A DNA stretch of 64,000 bases from Sanderia malayensis (lineage: Eukaryota; Cnidaria; Scyphozoa; Semaeostomeae; Pelagiidae). Location of the stretch: the NCBI GenBank assembly GCA_013076295.1, contig RQOL01000024.1, positions 62,001-126,000 on the forward strand, given 5' to 3'. Made by a program: the position numbers and the translations under genes. Each line of letters opens with the position of its first letter. Within the stretch, counting starts at the first letter, position 1. The notes beneath the pieces were generated by a model. It was given only the letters and a program-made list of their open reading frames with translations. It ran no database searches and was not told the DNA's origin. This document shows, in pieces, positions 4,891 to 15,223 of the stretch.

Positions 4891-4900
4891 TTTGTACGAC

Positions 4901-5342
4901 GGCTATCTGTAAAAGGGGGAACGGGGAATCAGGGAACGGGGAACGGGGAATAGAGAAAAGGGGGAATATGACGTCACACGATGTCGTATGACGTCATATT
5001 CCCCCTTTTTCAAATCTGTAAAAGGGGGAATCTGTAAAAGGGGGAATCTGTAAAAGGGGGAATCTGTAAAAGGGGGAATCTGTAAAAGGGGGAATCTGTA
5101 AAAGGGGGAATCTGTAAAAGGGGGAATCTGTAAAAGGGGGAATCTGTAAAAGGGGAATCTGTAAAAGGGGGAATCTGTAAAAAGGGGAATCTGTAAAAGG
5201 GGGAATAGTTTGCAATTAACTCAAAAATGACGCACTATTCATGTGGCTTTATAATTTATTTGTACAGTGCTTTTGTCGTATATTAAGTCATACGTTCTTA
5301 TCCCTTAAACTGGAAATACACTGAAACATCAACAAAACATGT
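4901..5342 (+). repeat. Left TIR of the kinase-MULE with 12 subterminal iterons
   Basis: In order: a terminal GGCTATCTGTAAAAGGGGGA; a GGGGAA/GGGAAC-rich stretch; an imperfect palindrome at about 4957-5012 built on TATGACGTCA; then 12 units of ATCTGTAAAAGGGGGA; then about 130 bp ending ...CAACAAAACATGT that is also found inverted at the right end. The palindrome and iterons are candidate transposase-binding sites; that is inference from position and repetition. Confidence 0.9.
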
Positions 5343-5854
5343 TAATCTCGAATTTTCATCACTTACAAGGAAAGAAAGCATATACACGGACAACCAGAGT
5401 GCTGATTTTTTCAACGCGAATATATTGACGTTGGTATCTTAGCATCTGAGTGACTTTTTCCTCACGTTACTTGCTATTTCCTTTTCTTACTGAAGCGCAT
5501 ACTTTTGCAATTAGAGGATCCTATACGGTTGATGAACAATACATCAAATGAGTAGTGATGTGACTGGAAACCAGCTATTTGACCCAGTGCGTTCTTTGAT
5601 TTCATGTTTACTTTTAGAATTTCTAATTATAGAAACCATTACAAAGTGAGATACATTTATTTTCAATACATCCAGATGGACTTCTAGACATATTTTTGGT
5701 CAGTTGTTAGTTGTTCATCTTGTATGGTGGTTACATGTTTATGTTATGTTCACAAGACGTGCTCGTTCAGCTCACAGCTGTGTTATTATCTTTCTGTCAG
5801 CTTTTATGTCTGACAGCCCAGGGTTTTGTTAGCCTGCGTGCACTCTCTGAACAG

Positions 5855-6272
5855 TCCTAACACAGAATAGAGATAATACAGAAGGCCAACTCGAGCATTT
5901 TCGATGGTCACGCATGTAAGCGAGGTTAAGGACTCCAAAACACGTGTTGTGTGATATGCTAAGTATAATAAATAAAAAAAACACAATAATTAGGCCTTCA
6001 TTTTGTTATTCCGTGTATCAGTAAAAGTTTCTTCACTTGTATGTAACGCCCTTTTAATGACATTCACGCACAACACCCGCTTTCCCTACCACAGCATTTT
6101 GTAACTATCCGCCATTAAACATAGGCCTATTCTCTTTTCCTATTGTTCGCCCATTGTTTGGCCACTGGCTACATGAAAACGAGTTTAAGGACTCCACAAA
6201 ATCCATGACCATGAGCTTCAAAGGATACCGACACGAGTTGGCCTTCTGTATTATCTCTATTCTGTGGTCCTA
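5855..6272. repeat. Inverted repeat with about 35-bp arms inside the kinase-MULE
   Basis: The stretch at 5855-5895 (ending GAAGGCCAACTCG) is repeated inverted at 6233-6272 (starting ACGAGTTGGCCTTC). The 340-bp interior holds no gene. It may be a small nested element or part of the 5' untranslated region; no target duplication was identified. Confidence 0.6.
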
Positions 6273-6487
6273 AGCCCCAACAGTCTGCGATTTCAGAAAA
6301 TTATGTATTGTTTCGTGATTGTGGAACAACAATGATTAGCCAACTTTTTGACTAACCAGCTGGTAAATTGTGAACATCGATACCGAAAGGCAAAGAAATT
6401 GAAATCTCAGGATGTTATGAAGTGCTAATTTTAATGTGTCGTAATTTTAATTGTGTAAGTCTTGTTCGGTTCTCACACTTTATCGGT

Positions 6488-6625
6488 GATCTTTGCTATT
6501 TCGCATGAATGACGTCAGTTCCATAGAAAAATAGAGCCTTGGGAATTTTATTTTTAAAACAATGGATATCTGGATTTTTTGAGCCTCGACTTGGGAGTTT
6601 TGAAGATTTCAATCTGACAGCCCTG
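6488..6625 (-). mobile_element. Truncated hAT-type MITE, same family as 19289-19784
   Basis: On the minus strand this reads CAGGGCTGTCAGATTGAAAT and continues for about 138 bp with strong similarity to the first part of the element in HLCS intron 4. Only one terminus is present, so the copy is truncated. It lies inside the kinase-MULE about 180 bp upstream of the kinase frame. Confidence 0.75.
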
Positions 6626-6810
6626 GCGATGGGTTTGGCAGGTGAAGTATTATTTTCAAAATAGAGGTACCATGCCAAATACCGCAAGGCATAAGATGTG
6701 ACAAAGACTAAATTTTTTGAGGCAGGATATTAGTCGACACACAACCACTCTGAGTTCATTCAACGTCTTTCTGCAATGGCAGAGAGAAGTCTTCCGAAGC
6801 CAAGCACAAA

Positions 6811-9800
6811 GTGCTTGATGGTCTTGACGGCGTACAGAAATTTAATTGGAATGAAGTCAACCTTATCAGTACTATCGGCACTGGAAGCTTTGGTTTCGTT
6901 ATGTTGGCGAAATACAAAGAAAATCATGTTGTGCTCAAACAGCCTTTGTGCGGCGAAGAAAATAAAAAGGAATTCATAAAGGAAGTGAAATTGCTTAATA
7001 GCCTAAAGGGGCATGACAACATAGCTGAATTTAAGGCAGTGTGTTGGAGTCCATTTGCTATCATGCAAGAGTATGTTAATTTTTCTTTTGCTGCCTTTGA
7101 AGACGAGACGAACGTCAGCTCGCTATCCATGTTTCTGTCTCATATAAACGAGGTATATGACTTTGCCGGCTTTGAACATGTTACAGATTTTATAGTTAAC
7201 GATATCCTGAACGGAATGCTTTATATCCACGAACGTGATATCATTCATCGTGATTTGAAACCAGCGAATATTTTGGTGAGTAATCAGCATATATTTAGCG
7301 AAGATAAGACCTCGTTCCTTGCCAAATGGATATCAGAGACACAGCCCGTAATATGCAAATTAAGTGACTTTGGTGAGAGCAGATCGCGGCTTGTTCAAAC
7401 TCAGACAGTATTGGTATCGAAGGTTGCACAAATAGATCGAGGCAGTCCGGTGTACATGGCACCTGAAATATTGCTGAAAAATTTGAGACCCGCATTAGCA
7501 GACATGGAGACATTGAAAGCAGCTGATATGTGGGCAGTTGGCATGTGCATTTTTGTTGTCACTAATGCGAACCAGCCGTATCCATTTCATGACGCTCTTT
7601 TAAAGTGCACCAACGACAACATCAGGGAAGCTCTTGAAGATCTAGTATCAAAACAACAGCGCCCCTCGCTATCAAGAAAGTATGAAAAGCTGCATGCTAC
7701 AGCTTGGTGGCCGTTAGTAAGCCTATCAGAAAGACTAACATCATATGACCAGGATGAGCGAATAACATCTGTAGAGAGTGCTGTTGGAGCTCTAAAGGAA
7801 CTTAAAAGAAAGTCAACTTCTGCAACTTTCAATTTAAAGATACATCAAGGCAGTGCATTCGAAATGGTATGTGAAGAATCGGCAAAGCAACTCCAGCAAG
7901 GCCTGCATCTTCCTGGAAACATCGATGTCACTAACGATGGCACAAATGCGTGTGTTTTCCTGGCCTTAAAATTGTGCGATGAATTGAGGAATTTTACAAT
8001 GGAGATAAATGAAGATGCAAGTCTCTCTACGATTGGGTCTAAAATTGCTGATTTGACACACGCCATTATAAACGACTTTCCTGGAATTATAAACCCGCTA
8101 CGCGATAGAGATCAAATATATACACCATCGGAGGCAAAGGTAATTATGGCCAAGCATGGATATTTAGAAGCAAGTACTGAACTATCAGAAGAAATGCCAT
8201 TCATTGATCCTTTGTTAAGTGCAAAAGGGCGAAAGAATTTGATGAACTCTTTGAATTGTCTAATGAAAGAAAAAAACTCTTTTCTTTCTATTTACACATT
8301 TGAACCATACAGTATCATCATAGGTAGAGCGGGGCGTATTGTTTTTTCGGTCGACACCCATGCGGTGCCCAAATTATGTGATGGAGATGGCAACGCTCAA
8401 GTGAAAGTTTATGACTGTGAAGATGTCAAGACACCCACTGCAGTTTGTCTATGGATATGGTCAAGGGCAGCAAACAGTGGAATATCAGCTGAAACTGCAC
8501 AATCGCTTGCAATAGTGTCCACATCAATTGTTTCCGAAAATGCAGAAAAGCAACCATACAATCCCTTTGCCGTTGAGTCCTGCCTCATTGATCTGACTGT
8601 TGAAGTAAGTATCAGACACAATTTATATGCTTCCAATACCTTGTTTGTAGCTGGCTTTTTCGTTGCGGCACATCCGAATGAGAAATGCGTTTCCAGATTG
8701 CAAACTACTATTTATGTTTGTTATAGACTGAGGGTGTGATAGACAATCATGATGCTTCATCAGCCTTTTGCAGCATTGCCGATGAACCAATTCATCAACT
8801 TCGTAAGCCCATCATCGAGGTAAGAATGGGGATGGGATAATTTCCAATATACTCCAAGCTGTGCTCTCTAGTCGTAAAGTCATTGTCATGTATTATTATT
8901 CTCTGATAGCCTAATTCACAAGATTCAAGTCTTCTGCACCAGCAATCAGCATTTGATGATAATATTTACTCAAGCAGACATGTAGAATCCAGTAACAGTG
9001 CCAGCAGCGTAATCTCCCTTGGCTCGACTCTCTCAGGGCGAAGCACAAATGAGCGGTAAGCTTGGGTGCATTAGTTTTTTTTGTTGCACAAGTTTTCTTT
9101 CAACTTTTCTTCTATCATTTCAATGCTGAGCATTGCTCTGGGATACTTACATATCTATATTGCTTAAATTGTGTTTCAGAGAAGAACAGTCTACTGGAAA
9201 GGAAAATACGTCACTGCAGCCTGATGGAGAGGCTTATAAAGGCGATACACGCACACCAGTTTTTTCATGGCGAAAAGAACCATACGAATTTGCGGACATT
9301 GCAAAAATCATGCTGTCGACTTACACAAGGGAATCCCTGTGTGTTGCACCACCGATTAATGTGTCTCACAACGTATCTTTTCTCGCTGAATATTCCAGCT
9401 TTACCAACTGGGAAGATTTGAAATGCGATGACATGGGAGCATGGAAGCATACAGGCTCACCAAAGCGCTATTACCATGTGGACATGATTGACGAGAAGCC
9501 TGCCACGGTTACCCCAGTGACAAAATCAGAGTTCGGAGAGCAAGGTGTATGGCGAATGAAGAGGATTTATTATAAAAACAAATCGGATTGCAGCATCCGC
9601 AAGACAATTTCCATCATGCAAGGTTGGTGTTATGGTTGTATATTTCATCGTGCATATATGAACCATATTGCTAGGTTAATTGTGTTGTTTGCTTGAATTG
9701 CTCTTCTAAATCATCATTCCAGATGCAACAGAGAAGTGTGGGGAGTACATATTTTTAGAATATCGATTTAAAGGAGAGGAACACGAGATGACAGCAATAA

Positions 9801-12664
9801 AACCTCATGGCAATAGCAAAAGCGGGAGACAGTATATCCGCGTATTTCCAAGTGTAAGAGACAAGCTGCGAGATTCGAAGTCAAAGAAACAAAGTAGCGC
9901 AAGTGGTGAGTTGGATAAGGTGTATCTATCCTCAGGAGACGTACTGGGAGCTAGAAGTCTGGGAGAGTTACCACGTGGACGTAGTGATCTCTACAATGCA
10001 AGAAGATCTGCTAGCAGCTCAACAAGTACAGGCAAACAGAATGGCAATGAAAAGGTATTGTGCGACGAATTCTGGTCGCTGCTGGAGAAAGCAAAAAGAG
10101 AGAGTTTGTCGGGAAAGGGTGGGTCATTTATAAGAGAATGTAGCGCACACCCAGAGCTTTTTGTTGTTCTGGCTACCGATCGGCAGTTGCAAGATATGGA
10201 AAAGTTCTGTACCGATCCAAGAGAATTCTGCGTGTATGGTATCGACCCAACGTTCAACATATTCAAAGAGAATATCAGTCTCACCGTTACAACATACAGA
10301 AATCTCCGCTTAATGAAACGTGATACCAACAAGCCACCAATGTTCATTGGCCCTGTGTTAATGCATCAGCGCAAAGATTGGAGAACGTATTCTAGATTCG
10401 CTCACCGCATTGTCTTGGAAAACCCAGCGTTGGAAGCAATTATAGCTTGTGGTACGGACGGTGAAAAGGCAATAATGGATGGCTGCAAAAGAAATTTTCC
10501 CTTTGCCATTTTCTTGCGATGTTTCATTCATTTCAAAGGTAAATATTTCAAAAGTACTTTTCTGTAACCCCTATGTAGATGAACAGTTTACCCATCTTGA
10601 TTTCATCATTGTATCTGGTATCAGCATTACTGAAATGTTTTCTGCGCTAGGTAACATCGAACGAGAGATTACGCGAAGAGGTCTTGGCACAAGCTTCAAA
10701 AAAGCCGTTATGAATGATATATTTGGCAAGCAAGAAGAGCATACAAAGTTCTATGGATTAGTGGACTGTGATGATGGAATTGAATTTGACACCAAACTGA
10801 AGGCATTGCAGGATGATTGGGTCGAAAAGGAAAAATGCGATCCATGTAAAAAACTTCCAGGTCAATCTTTCCATGCTTGGTTTACAAAAGAAAAGGTACG
10901 GTCTAGCAAATGCATTGTATTTTATTTAGAAATTCACATATGGTGCTAGATATTATAGACTTTGATCCAGGAGGTAGAATGTTATTATTTTTGTATTATA
11001 TTGTCATTTCTTTGCTATACTTATACAGGCAGAAGACATAAAGGATTTCCTTTTGAAGCCGGTGCGCATCGAAGCTGGGCTAGGAAATCCGCCAGACGAG
11101 TACACAACAAACGACAACGAGGCAGCAAACCAGGTGATAAAGAAATCGCTGCACTATGATCCTCAAGACCCACAGAAATTCATCGAACATATCCAGGATA
11201 TGATCGAGGGCCAATCCCGCAACGAAGATCGTGCAGTATTTGGCAAGGGACCTTACAAAGTGAGGGATCAATACTCACACCTAGAAATCGACGATCGAAG
11301 GTGGGGGAAAATGACATACGATCAAAAAATGGCACAGGCTGTGAAGTTTCGCAATGCTGGAATGGACAACGCACGGCGTGAGCTACCGGAGAAGGACAGC
11401 GACGATGATGGTGTTGATGATGATGATGATGATGACGATGCAAATCACCGAAACAGAAAATTGTCAATATCTGCAGTACAAAGTGGTATTAAGGTAGTTA
11501 TGTATGTATGTTGCTAACCGAGACAAGTGCCCAGCACAAGTATACAAATTCATATATACATTCTGTGATAACAGTGATGGATACGCAGAACTTGAAAGTT
11601 ATTCCTTGCAGAGCGATTCGTTTGCACAACAAGTTTTCATATGACATCGGTAACGTTATTTTCTGCTTTATGCTCACTGAAAATATAAATGTGTTTGCTT
11701 TATTATATAGGTAATTACACCGGCGATTCTGGAGTCAATGTGGGACAAAGCATCAGATCTTCTGCGGCAACCCAAACACGTGTTCCCACAGCCAGGTGCG
11801 ACAAATGGTGCATTTAGTGTCGTAGCAGCCAACAATAAGCTTTACAGTGTAATACCCGGCAAAGGTGGCTCATTTACATGCGAGAAAACTTGTATTCATT
11901 ACAGTACAAAGGTAGGGCATACTAATTCTAGACATTTTTATAGCTATCCACGATTCACAAAGGTTTCCTGGCAATAACAAGATGTTATGTATTTCCTTCA
12001 GATCTGTGAGCATACATTAGCAGCAGCCCAGGCAAACGGTACTATTCATAGTTTCATAAATTGGTTCAAAAGATCAAAAAAGAACAAAAGCCTGGTCGAT
12101 CTAGCTCTTGTAGGTGGGCCAAAAACAGCTGGAAAAAAGCCCTCCAATCGCAAACGGTCCAACAACAAGCGCAAATCAATTGAAGATATGGTGGACATCC
12201 ACAAAGATAAGATGCCTTTGCAGACACACAGTGCTCATGTTCAGACACCTCCTGTAAGCACGTGCCACCCAATACAACATGTGTTGCCGCCTGCTTCACT
12301 GCACCCTAGCCTTGCCCTTCCTGGAAAAGGTAACCGCTTTTCATTGAAATGGGTTGCAGGTACTCGTATATCAAAATGCTACGGTTGTCGTGGGGATATA
12401 ATAAACCCCCCTACCCAAGCTCCAGAGGATCTCGTGGTTGTATACCAGGACATGCGACAGTACCGAGACAGAGCTACAGGAAACATGGTGTTTACATCTG
12501 AAGCCCAAAATGTACATTTTCATTTGCGACTAAGATGCATCCTAGCAAAATATATGTTTTTCAATCCTGGTTTGCTGGAGATCCCTCCAGAATTCATTGC
12601 CTACTTTCAGGAGGCACATTTGCAACGACTTTCTTCCGAATTTGGGTTGATTTTCCATTTATAA
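6811..12664 (+). CDS. Kinase - protease-like - MULE transposase fusion protein, nine exons
   Basis: Exons 6811-8604, 8727-8819, 8910-9055, 9180-9622, 9723-10538, 10651-10895, 11029-11493, 11711-11911 and 12002-12664 join in frame, all GT-AG, giving about 1,621 residues. Numbering from 6811: residues 13-270 are a protein kinase (GTGSFG loop at 23, K43, HRD D148, DFG D186, APE E219). Residues 340-560 contain NDGTNAC (C381) and VDTH (D515, H517), resembling a papain-fold protease; this is inference. Residues 990-1220 are the MULE DDE core (D1000 in GIDPTF, D1071 in GTDGEK, CFIH, E1210 in TTNDNE). An acidic Asp run follows. Then come a SWIM-like finger (C1391, C1395, C1403, H1405) and a C-terminal CYGC/H/C zinc motif. 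The start is unresolved: 6811 is GTG, the frame is closed by TGA at 6751, and an ATG at 6776 lies in another frame. A 5' exon or a 1-base loss near 6808 is likely. Confidence 0.85.
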
Positions 12665-12763
12665 CTTTGCAATATTTACATAATTTGTTTTTCATCATTC
12701 TCTTCAGTTAAAGTTCGGTTGCCAATGTGCGCATTTCCACTTTTTTTATGTTAATCCAATTTT

Positions 12764-13131
12764 ACATGTTTTGTTGATGTTTCAGTGTATTTCCAGTTTA
12801 AGGGATAAGAACGTATGACTTAATATACGACAAAAGCACTGTACAAATAAATTGTTCGCCTGCAAAATGTTTGAGAATTTTTTCTAACTTCGTGCGTCAT
12901 TTTTGAGTTAATTGCAAACTATTCCCCCTTTTACAGATTCCCCCTTTTACAGATTCCCCCTTTTACAGATTCCCCCTTTTACAGATTCCCCCTTTTACAG
13001 ATTCCCCCTTTTACAGATTTGAAAAAGGGGGAATATGACGTCATACGACATCGTGTGACGTCATATTCCCCCTTTTCTCCATTCCCCGTTCCCCGTTCCC
13101 TGATTCCCCGTTCCCCCTTTTACAGATAGCC
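12764..13131 (-). repeat. Right TIR of the kinase-MULE with six subterminal iterons
   Basis: This is the inverse of 4901-5342. It has the same terminal sequence, the same TATGACGTCA palindrome (about 13021-13075) and the same inner block, but only six copies of the iteron against twelve on the left. A patch of about 40 bp next to the iterons (near 12851-12890) is unrelated to the left TIR. Confidence 0.9.
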
Positions 13132-13240
13132 TTTGTACGACCGCCATTGTTGCTTCGGCATACTGTGACGCTTAGGCCTAATGTAAACAAAGTCAAAGTT
13201 TTAAAAACAAATCAGTCAATGTTTCTTCATAACAGATAGA

Positions 13241-13512: not shown

Positions 13513-15148
13513 TTACAAAAACCCTAAATCTTTAATAAAGACTTTGCACAATCTGCAGATGCAAGTATTTCCTTTCCATGATTTTATTTTTCGTTTGAAT
13601 TCAGCGAGTGTGCTGGAGTCTTTAATTTCGGTTGGTAATGAGGACCATAAATGACAGCCTCTGTACTGAATATTCTCTATTCCGTATGTGTTTGTCCTTA
13701 CTTCGGGCAACCGTAAATGATTTTCACTTCGCAAACTGTATTTAATATTTCTCTCTGTAAATATTTTTTTCATAAATGTTGGATTTAGATTGTTTTTTGT
13801 TTTGAATATTTCAATCATTAGCAGTTGCAGATTGTGCTGATGAACAGTGCCATATTTTTTCTTTAGTTTTTCTAGCTCTGATTCACTATCTTTGCATACC
13901 AACCGTAATGCTCTCTCTTGAATGCGATTTAACTTCGAATTAGTTGCCCTGTCATGAAACATCCATACAAGTGGACAATAATTAAACTGCGACCGGATGA
14001 AAGAATTCATTAAAATTTCTAATTTGATAGGATCAATGTAATTCGACAAACGAGCAAGCGCGTGAAGCTTTTGGTTGGCCTTTTTTGACAAATCATCAAC
14101 ATGTTTTTTAAAGCTTAGTTTCTTATCAAAGGTCACACCTAACAGTTTTTCGTATTCACTTTCATTAATCCTTGAATTTCCAATTGAAACTGTTGCTTCC
14201 GTACTTTTATCGCCAAATATCATCAGGTGGCATTTGTCATCATTTAATTTTAAAAAGTTGTCGGAAAACCATTTTACTATCACAGAGCTGTCTTCTTCTA
14301 ATTGTTTGATAATAGTATCAAGATCCGGTTGGCATGCAAAGATTGTGGTATCATCAGCATAGTTACAGATCTTTGTGCGATGTGTAGACCAGAATATGTC
14401 ATTTATAAAGACATTAAATAATAAAGGCCCTAGGACCGACCCTTGGGGTACTCCAATCTTGATTTCTTTCCAATCACTAAAAGAGTTGTTGATCTTTACT
14501 CTCTGTTGTCTATTGGATAGATAGCTTCTTATGAGCTGAAGGGCATCCGTGTTAAGTCCATAGGCACTCAGTTTTGCTATCAAAAGACCATGGTTTACAC
14601 AATCAAAAGCCTTTGAAAGATCCATGAACACTGCTCCTGCAAGTCCCTTATTATCAATGATGTTCTTACAGTATTGCAAAAAGTTTAACAAGACATGCTG
14701 CGTGTTATACCCTTGTCTAAATCCTCCTAATAGCGGTGAAAAAAAGCGTGCAGTAAATTCAGATAATTGCCTGTGCATTAGTCGCTCGAATATTTTACCG
14801 ATTGTAGGAAGGAGACTTATTGGTCTATAATTCTTTTTGCTCATGTTATCATCCTTCTTGAAGAGTGAAGAAACGTCAGCATTTTTCATATTATCTGGGA
14901 AGCTGCTTTCCTCAACAAGTTTATTAAAAAGCTCTGTGAGAGGAAAACAAAACAAATCTGCGTTGTACTTTAATATTTTTGCAGGGATTGCATTCTGTGG
15001 TGAACCCTTCTTAGGATCTAAATTTTGCAGCTGTTCTAGCATTTCTTCGACTGTGATTTTCCTGAATGAGAAGTTTATGGTGCTATTGACGGACGACTTT
15101 ATCCTAAGGACACTGGGGTGTGACTGAAAACGTTTTACAATCGTTAAG
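13513..15148 (-). CDS. LINE reverse transcriptase, 5'-truncated ORF2
   Basis: An open minus-strand frame of more than 509 codons. RT motifs appear in order: RPISLLPTIGKIFE, GFRQGYNTQ, FMDLSKAFDCVNH, GVPQGSVLGPLLF, the catalytic YADD (in CNYADDTTIF), LKLNDDKCHLMIFG and LLGVTFDKKLSFKKH. A typical C-terminal tail follows (YGIENIQYRGCHLWSSLP). All catalytic aspartates are present and no stop interrupts the frame. The endonuclease domain and ORF1 are absent, so the copy cannot be autonomous. The frame stays open upstream of the first Met (15042) through FQSHPSVLRI into the palindrome, showing that 15042 is not the original start. Confidence 0.9.
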
Positions 15149-15223
15149 CAGGGATCATCTTAACGATTGTAAAACGTTTTCAGTCACACCCCAGTGTCCT
15201 TAGGATAAAGTCGTCCGTCAATA
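15084..15223. repeat. Perfect palindrome with 65-bp arms and 10-bp spacer
   Basis: Arms 15084-15148 and 15159-15223 are exact inverted copies, separated by CAGGGATCAT. The inner arm is LINE coding sequence. The outer arm is its reversed copy at the 5' boundary of the LINE. Confidence 0.9.

Follow-up and report, generated by a model that had tools for sequence, protein, structure and literature searches.

Is the protein kinase encoded inside an animal DNA transposon a regular part of its transposase gene, or is it the accident of a single copy? This question is raised by an element at positions 4901-13131 of a 64,000-nt stretch of the Sanderia malayensis contig RQOL01000024.1 (the whole stretch being referred to here as the window), which is bounded by matching terminal inverted repeats (TIRs) and a perfect 10-bp target site duplication (TSD). 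We consider it probable that the element represents a recently mobile family of Mutator-like elements (MULEs), whose single predicted gene encodes a transposase fused N-terminally to a Ser/Thr kinase and a cysteine-protease-like domain, with the kinase being active, kept by selection and acting where the transposase acts. In keeping with an animal source, the genome has 45 matches to exons of Wnt, a gene specific to animals, compared with 0 of 14 control genomes; where relatives of the element carry species names, these point to Cnidaria.

In the window copy, exons with GT-AG borders and matching phases join into a single predicted frame of approximately 1630 residues, running from the kinase through the C-terminus. 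In this respect, the initial annotation, which placed a kinase on the transposase gene, was right. The parts of the gene are as follows:

6776-8604, + strand: exon 1, with the start codon (by comparison with the long copy C481), kinase and protease-like domain; one-base frameshift in the first codons
6811-7812, + strand: Ser/Thr protein kinase domain (Pfam), with Lys, HRD, DFG and APE present; residues 9-342 of the fold model
7834-8526, + strand, borders approximate: cysteine-protease-like domain, with conserved NDGTNxC and DTH
8727-8819, + strand: exon 2, linker; GT-AG, phase consistent
8910-9055, + strand: exon 3, linker; GT-AG model
9180-9622, + strand: exon 4, putative DNA-binding region ahead of the DDE domain
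9723-10538, + strand: exon 5, transposase, with DPTFN (first D), TDGE (second D) and CxxH
10651-10895, + strand: exon 6, transposase
11029-11493, + strand: exon 7, transposase, with the catalytic E in TTNDNEAAN
11711-11911, + strand: exon 8, start of a SWIM-like Cys/His motif (by eye)
12002-12664, + strand: exon 9, end of the Cys/His motif and C-terminus; stop codon at 12662-12664

A hypothetical upstream exon at 6629-6641 was dropped, since the long copies C481 and C464 place the start codon at the equivalent of 6776, the window copy being frameshifted. Two database gene models match long copies of the element. P0001 is the product of copy C481, with 0 mismatches and one 37-residue intron retained, while P0002 is identical to C464 at 610 of 610 residues across the kinase exon; given these exact matches, both models come from the species of the window, or from one identical at these loci.

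The kinase domain matches Pfam PF00069 (Pkinase) with an E-value of 4.9e-30 and 105.3 bits, against a cut-off of 31.7. The catalytic Lys, the HRD Asp and the DFG Asp are present in the window and in the lettered rows of the kinase alignment, and the catalytic residues are kept across 32 aligned rows, mostly at approximately 30-45% identity to the window. An AlphaFold model built with 41 sequences has the kinase fold, and a PDB fold search with it returned kinases (a version built with 4 sequences was poor, with a predicted local distance difference test score of 43.5). Among kinases of known structure, RIPK2, ALK2 and BRAF share 23-25% identity with the window kinase, which differs from them in being fused to a transposase.

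What kind of transposase is it? MULEs typically have long TIRs, TSDs of 8-11 bp and a DDE transposase, commonly with a SWIM-type zinc finger, as described in a survey (PMC6446971), and both the 10-bp TSD and the long TIRs of the window element fall within this description. Its DDE motifs are DPTFN, TDGE, CFIH (the CxxH between the second D and the E) and TTNDNE, and they are the same in most aligned relatives, the exceptions being P0010, P0011 and P0051. A SWIM-like Cys/His motif can be seen by eye in the window protein and in P0003, without a Pfam match in the former. The window protein itself matches neither Pfam MULE (PF10551) nor Transposase_mut (PF00872) at E<=1; of 8 chosen homologues, P0107 and P0121 pass the cut-offs of both models, 5 more, including P0087, match below them, and P0005 matches neither. 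The MULE-type assignment made in the initial annotation therefore stands on the anatomy of TIRs, TSD and DDE motifs and on the Pfam matches of relatives, and not on any direct match of the window protein.

Between the kinase and the transposase lies a cysteine-protease-like domain that was not noted before. In the lettered rows of its alignment, the Cys is present in 30 of 30 and the His in 28 of 29. The domain of the window has no Pfam match above cut-off and none to OTU models, while Herpes_teg_N matches 3 of 9 relatives weakly and without significance, with a best E of 0.089; the herpesvirus tegument protease-like domain has a similar Cys and Asp-x-His arrangement. Pfam matches in single relatives, to ColA_N (E 0.0026), DUF5662 and Cpn60, were taken as chance, and a PDB sequence search with the profile of the domain yielded chance-level matches only. 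The region is modelled confidently by AlphaFold, and fold searches of PDB and a viral library with the whole model returned kinases, the kinase filling the lists. By inspection, the domain is absent from P0087 and P0120, which makes it an optional module.

Linkage with the transposase also speaks for the kinase being a regular component. When the genome was searched with the kinase, 50 matches grouped into 40 clusters; the DDE region gave 123, grouped into 82. The numbers of clusters are lower bounds, with fragments and distant relatives among them. Of the 40 kinase clusters, 22 have a same-strand transposase no more than 12 kb downstream, where 0.11 would be expected by chance, and C686, found by DNA search, would be one further locus with both. 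The order of kinase, protease-like domain and transposase is also found in C103, at 37-51% identity, in a region that stops short of its C-terminus. What is more, across 12 elements (54 usable pairs), kinase and transposase distances correlate at 0.868, a value reached by 0 of 5000 permutations. Part of this correlation is due to near-copies, and the use of the window protein as anchor may raise it slightly; in three 7-element subsets without most near-copies, it is 0.58 (reached by 9 of 5000 permutations), 0.62 (by 4) and 0.74 (by 51). The pairing looks old and not accidental. The initial annotation had considered that other copies might lack the kinase; on the contrary, the other long copies (C481, C464 and C686) and divergent relatives carry it.

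As a separate observation, a 162-bp unit is repeated in tandem 6.0 times between the protease-like and transposase parts of C103 (L110 2439-3413), and each unit looks like a short exon plus an intron, coding a repeated acidic peptide.

Fused proteins also occur elsewhere. Using four transposases in a profile search retrieved 121 proteins; among the 120 listed, those with kinase annotation are P0002 and P0114 (both named like the models from the species of the window), P0087 (names starting with Seg, GoldUCD, perhaps an Aurelia annotation) and P0120 (Dendronephthya gigantea). With P0001, which is also fused, the models P0002, P0087 and P0120 answer the call of the initial annotation for other kinase-MULE proteins. 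A second profile search, this time with the kinase and the middle domain, yielded 123 proteins at E<=1e-20, of which the top 25 span 78-98% of the query. In the DDE tree, a fully supported 7-row clade unites the window, C103, C303a, two Dendronephthya proteins, P0009 and P0011, and the kinase label requires 3 changes on that tree; in the kinase tree (44 rows), sequences of the window genome fall in three branches, among open reading frames of other sources. Following these trees, the kinase either joined early and was then lost repeatedly, or moved between MULE branches.

Is the family mobile? A pattern of the first 30 bp of the TIR, allowing up to 3 mismatches, has 66 forward and 58 reverse matches in the 184-Mb genome, compared with 0 and 0 for the reversed control. 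Pairing ends by eye among the listed matches gave at least 30 candidate elements, including the window and C464 and leaving out the TIR pairs C481:86053/92841 and C828:76703/76858. Perfect 10-bp TSDs flank 22 of the 30, a single mismatch is seen in 1 more and 7 have neither, with the right end of C464 entering this test as an estimated position only, at which the end was not found. When left and right ends were mismatched as a control, 8 of 870 pairings shared a TSD. One site is common to C303, C415 and C453 and another to C655 and C3; copies at one shared site are probably haplotigs, which would account for the 8 control matches, and counting each shared site once, no fewer than 19 perfect sites are distinct. 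In other words, copies with the TIRs of the window and differing TSDs, for which the initial annotation proposed to search, do exist. The long copy C481 at 55944-64041 has a perfect TSD and reads 1633 residues stop-free. All of 9 short derivatives sampled (first 1.5 kb each) have the TIR, and at least 6 retain segments of the non-coding 5' region seen in the long element, as would be expected had they arisen from it by deletion. Three derivatives at C616 (4191160, 4204260 and 4219551) lie close together, with imperfect or nested end sequences, and were perhaps inserted into one another.

At the window locus, the limits of the element were correctly placed, with inverted arms and the perfect TSD at both ends. 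The arms at 4894-5111 and 12921-13138 are 99% complementary along 218 nt, and more inverted blocks follow inward to 5345 and 12761:

4891-4900, no strand: left 10-bp TSD, TTTGTACGAC
4901-5111, + strand: left TIR, outer part (arm 4894-5111, 99% complementary to 12921-13138)
5013-5206, + strand: subterminal tandem array, 16-bp unit, 12.2 copies
5253-5345, + strand: left inverted repeat, inner part, 99% to 12761-12853
5861-6266: nested miniature inverted-repeat transposable element (MITE) of approximately 0.4 kb, with 33-bp inverted ends and flanking TCCTAA
12761-12853, - strand: right inverted repeat, inner part
12921-13131, - strand: right TIR, containing 6.2 tandem 16-bp units (12921-13019)
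13132-13141, no strand: right 10-bp TSD, TTTGTACGAC

The insertion site is a dispersed repeat, two copies of which are found in L056 without the element; compared with the joined window flanks, these show a 5-nt indel at the junction and further changes, at 84-87% identity. Beyond the right end, a minus-strand open frame at 13516-15159 (548 aa) resembles reverse transcriptase, with a YADDT motif seen by eye.

Several observations weigh against the reading of a mobile family with a selected, active kinase. The window copy, described initially as intact-looking, is not intact: compared with C481, C464 and C686, it has a one-base frameshift just after the start codon, near the start of the kinase exon, and its nested MITE has no counterpart at that place in any of the three. 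In copy C464, the first intron holds a 4.4-kb insert, and two stops interrupt those transposase exons that were examined. The DFG segment is missing in P0120 and L072. In terms of the lower-bound clusters, a MULE was not detected nearby in any arrangement in 18 of 40 kinase clusters, nor a kinase in 60 of 82 transposase clusters. Only 4 of the 120 listed transposase homologues have a kinase annotation, many of the 120 being open reading frames from DNA contigs in which a separate N-terminal exon would not show, and P0087 sits on a long branch outside the supported DDE clade. Finally, the ratio of nonsynonymous to synonymous rates (dN/dS) among the three long copies is 0.35-0.53 for the kinase, with 2-3 synonymous changes, and 0.47-2.14 for the protease-like domain, also from few changes. 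That said, with 0.28-0.45 for the transposase and C-terminal exons, again from few changes, these values are compatible with constraint on kinase and transposase, without proving it; residue conservation across divergent relatives is the stronger argument.

Could the kinase-protease exon and the transposase be separate products of one element? Under this explanation, the main rival and one we hold to be possible but unlikely, RNA that is left unspliced or terminates early would be translated into a kinase-protease on its own, which would act in trans on signalling or silencing in the host. Indeed, the window frame 6754-8736 is open, with the frame of exon 1 continuing 44 codons beyond the donor site, to 8736; matching frames have 681 aa in C481 and 676 aa in C464, and the 25 best kinase-protease matches are open reading frames of 519-788 aa that cover 78-98% of that exon alone, although each could be just one exon of a larger gene. 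Splice phases, however, put kinase and transposase in one frame, and the four gene models named above are fused.

A less probable alternative is that the kinase, acquired long ago, has since become a passenger or works for the host, without a role in transposition. The many transposase clusters without a detected kinase would fit this, as would C289 (L072) and C675 (L073), where open frames of 544 aa encode kinase and protease-like parts and no nearby MULE is among the listed matches; these frames, of which the one in L072 is also the one without a DFG segment, are possibly domesticated or remnants of a deletion. Against a passenger speak the catalytic residues kept across the divergent rows and the co-divergence of kinase and transposase. 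As for a one-off, Pack-MULE-style capture of a host kinase by the window copy, gene-fragment capture by MULEs is on record (PMC6446971), including a Ser/Thr kinase piece in the mosquito Muta1NA3 (PMC5225508), but the presence of the same kinase in C481, C464, C686 and divergent relatives, in the same order and with co-diverging distances, already refutes it for practical purposes.

Returning to a kinase that works with its transposase, the fact that both have stayed in one gene across long divergence points to action at the transposase. Several transposases are regulated by host phosphorylation. Here, the most likely substrates would be either the transposase itself, through autophosphorylation of the complex, or chromatin and repair proteins around the break, and in this way the kinase would license or limit transposition. 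For the protease-like domain, possible roles are polyprotein trimming and ubiquitin removal, and the many short derivatives could be moved by enzyme supplied from the uninterrupted copy C481. If true, a conserved kinase encoded together with the transposase would give a DNA transposon a novel means of handling its host, the element bringing its own kinase.

A broader proposition, to which we give even chances, is that of a deep cnidarian-wide MULE branch whose transposase polypeptide includes an active kinase, often alongside a deubiquitinase-like protease, and so links transposition with phospho-signalling, such that a share of annotated cnidarian kinases would be transposon parts. Dendronephthya P0120, named "probable myosin light chain kinase", is a transposase fusion, and P0151 from the same genus, named "calcium-dependent protein kinase 2-like", matches the kinase-protease profile. 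Kinase counts in cnidarian genomes may thus include transposon genes. Seemingly ordinary kinases in public annotation that match the element kinase comprise these two, P0164 (Paramuricea) and P0189 (Desmophyllum).

How does the element compare with known systems? A search of the open-access literature by titles and abstract openings, with Repbase and subscription journals outside its scope, found no kinase-transposase fusion, and the fusion to a MULE is likely novel. The groups of the MULE survey share TIRs, TSD length and DDE transposase with the window element; in Table 1 of PMC6446971, the accessory modules are zinc fingers, FAR1, SET, PMD, DUF and OTU, with no kinase in its groups, and the word "kinase" is absent from the main text. 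The cnidarian MuDR-6_HM (group 14 in the same table) similarly carries a protease motif as an accessory, given there as Ovarian Tumour Gene; no kinase is listed for it, and the protease-like domain of the window has no Pfam OTU match. The nearest precedent is the Muta1 family of Aedes aegypti, an animal MULE that, like the window element, has non-autonomous copies; according to PMC5225508, its non-autonomous derivative Muta1NA3 contains a 276-bp Ser/Thr kinase gene fragment, 97.5% identical to the host gene. Muta1NA3, in other words, is a captured host fragment in a non-autonomous copy, whereas the window element has a whole kinase domain in its predicted transposase gene, and one that is common to divergent relatives.

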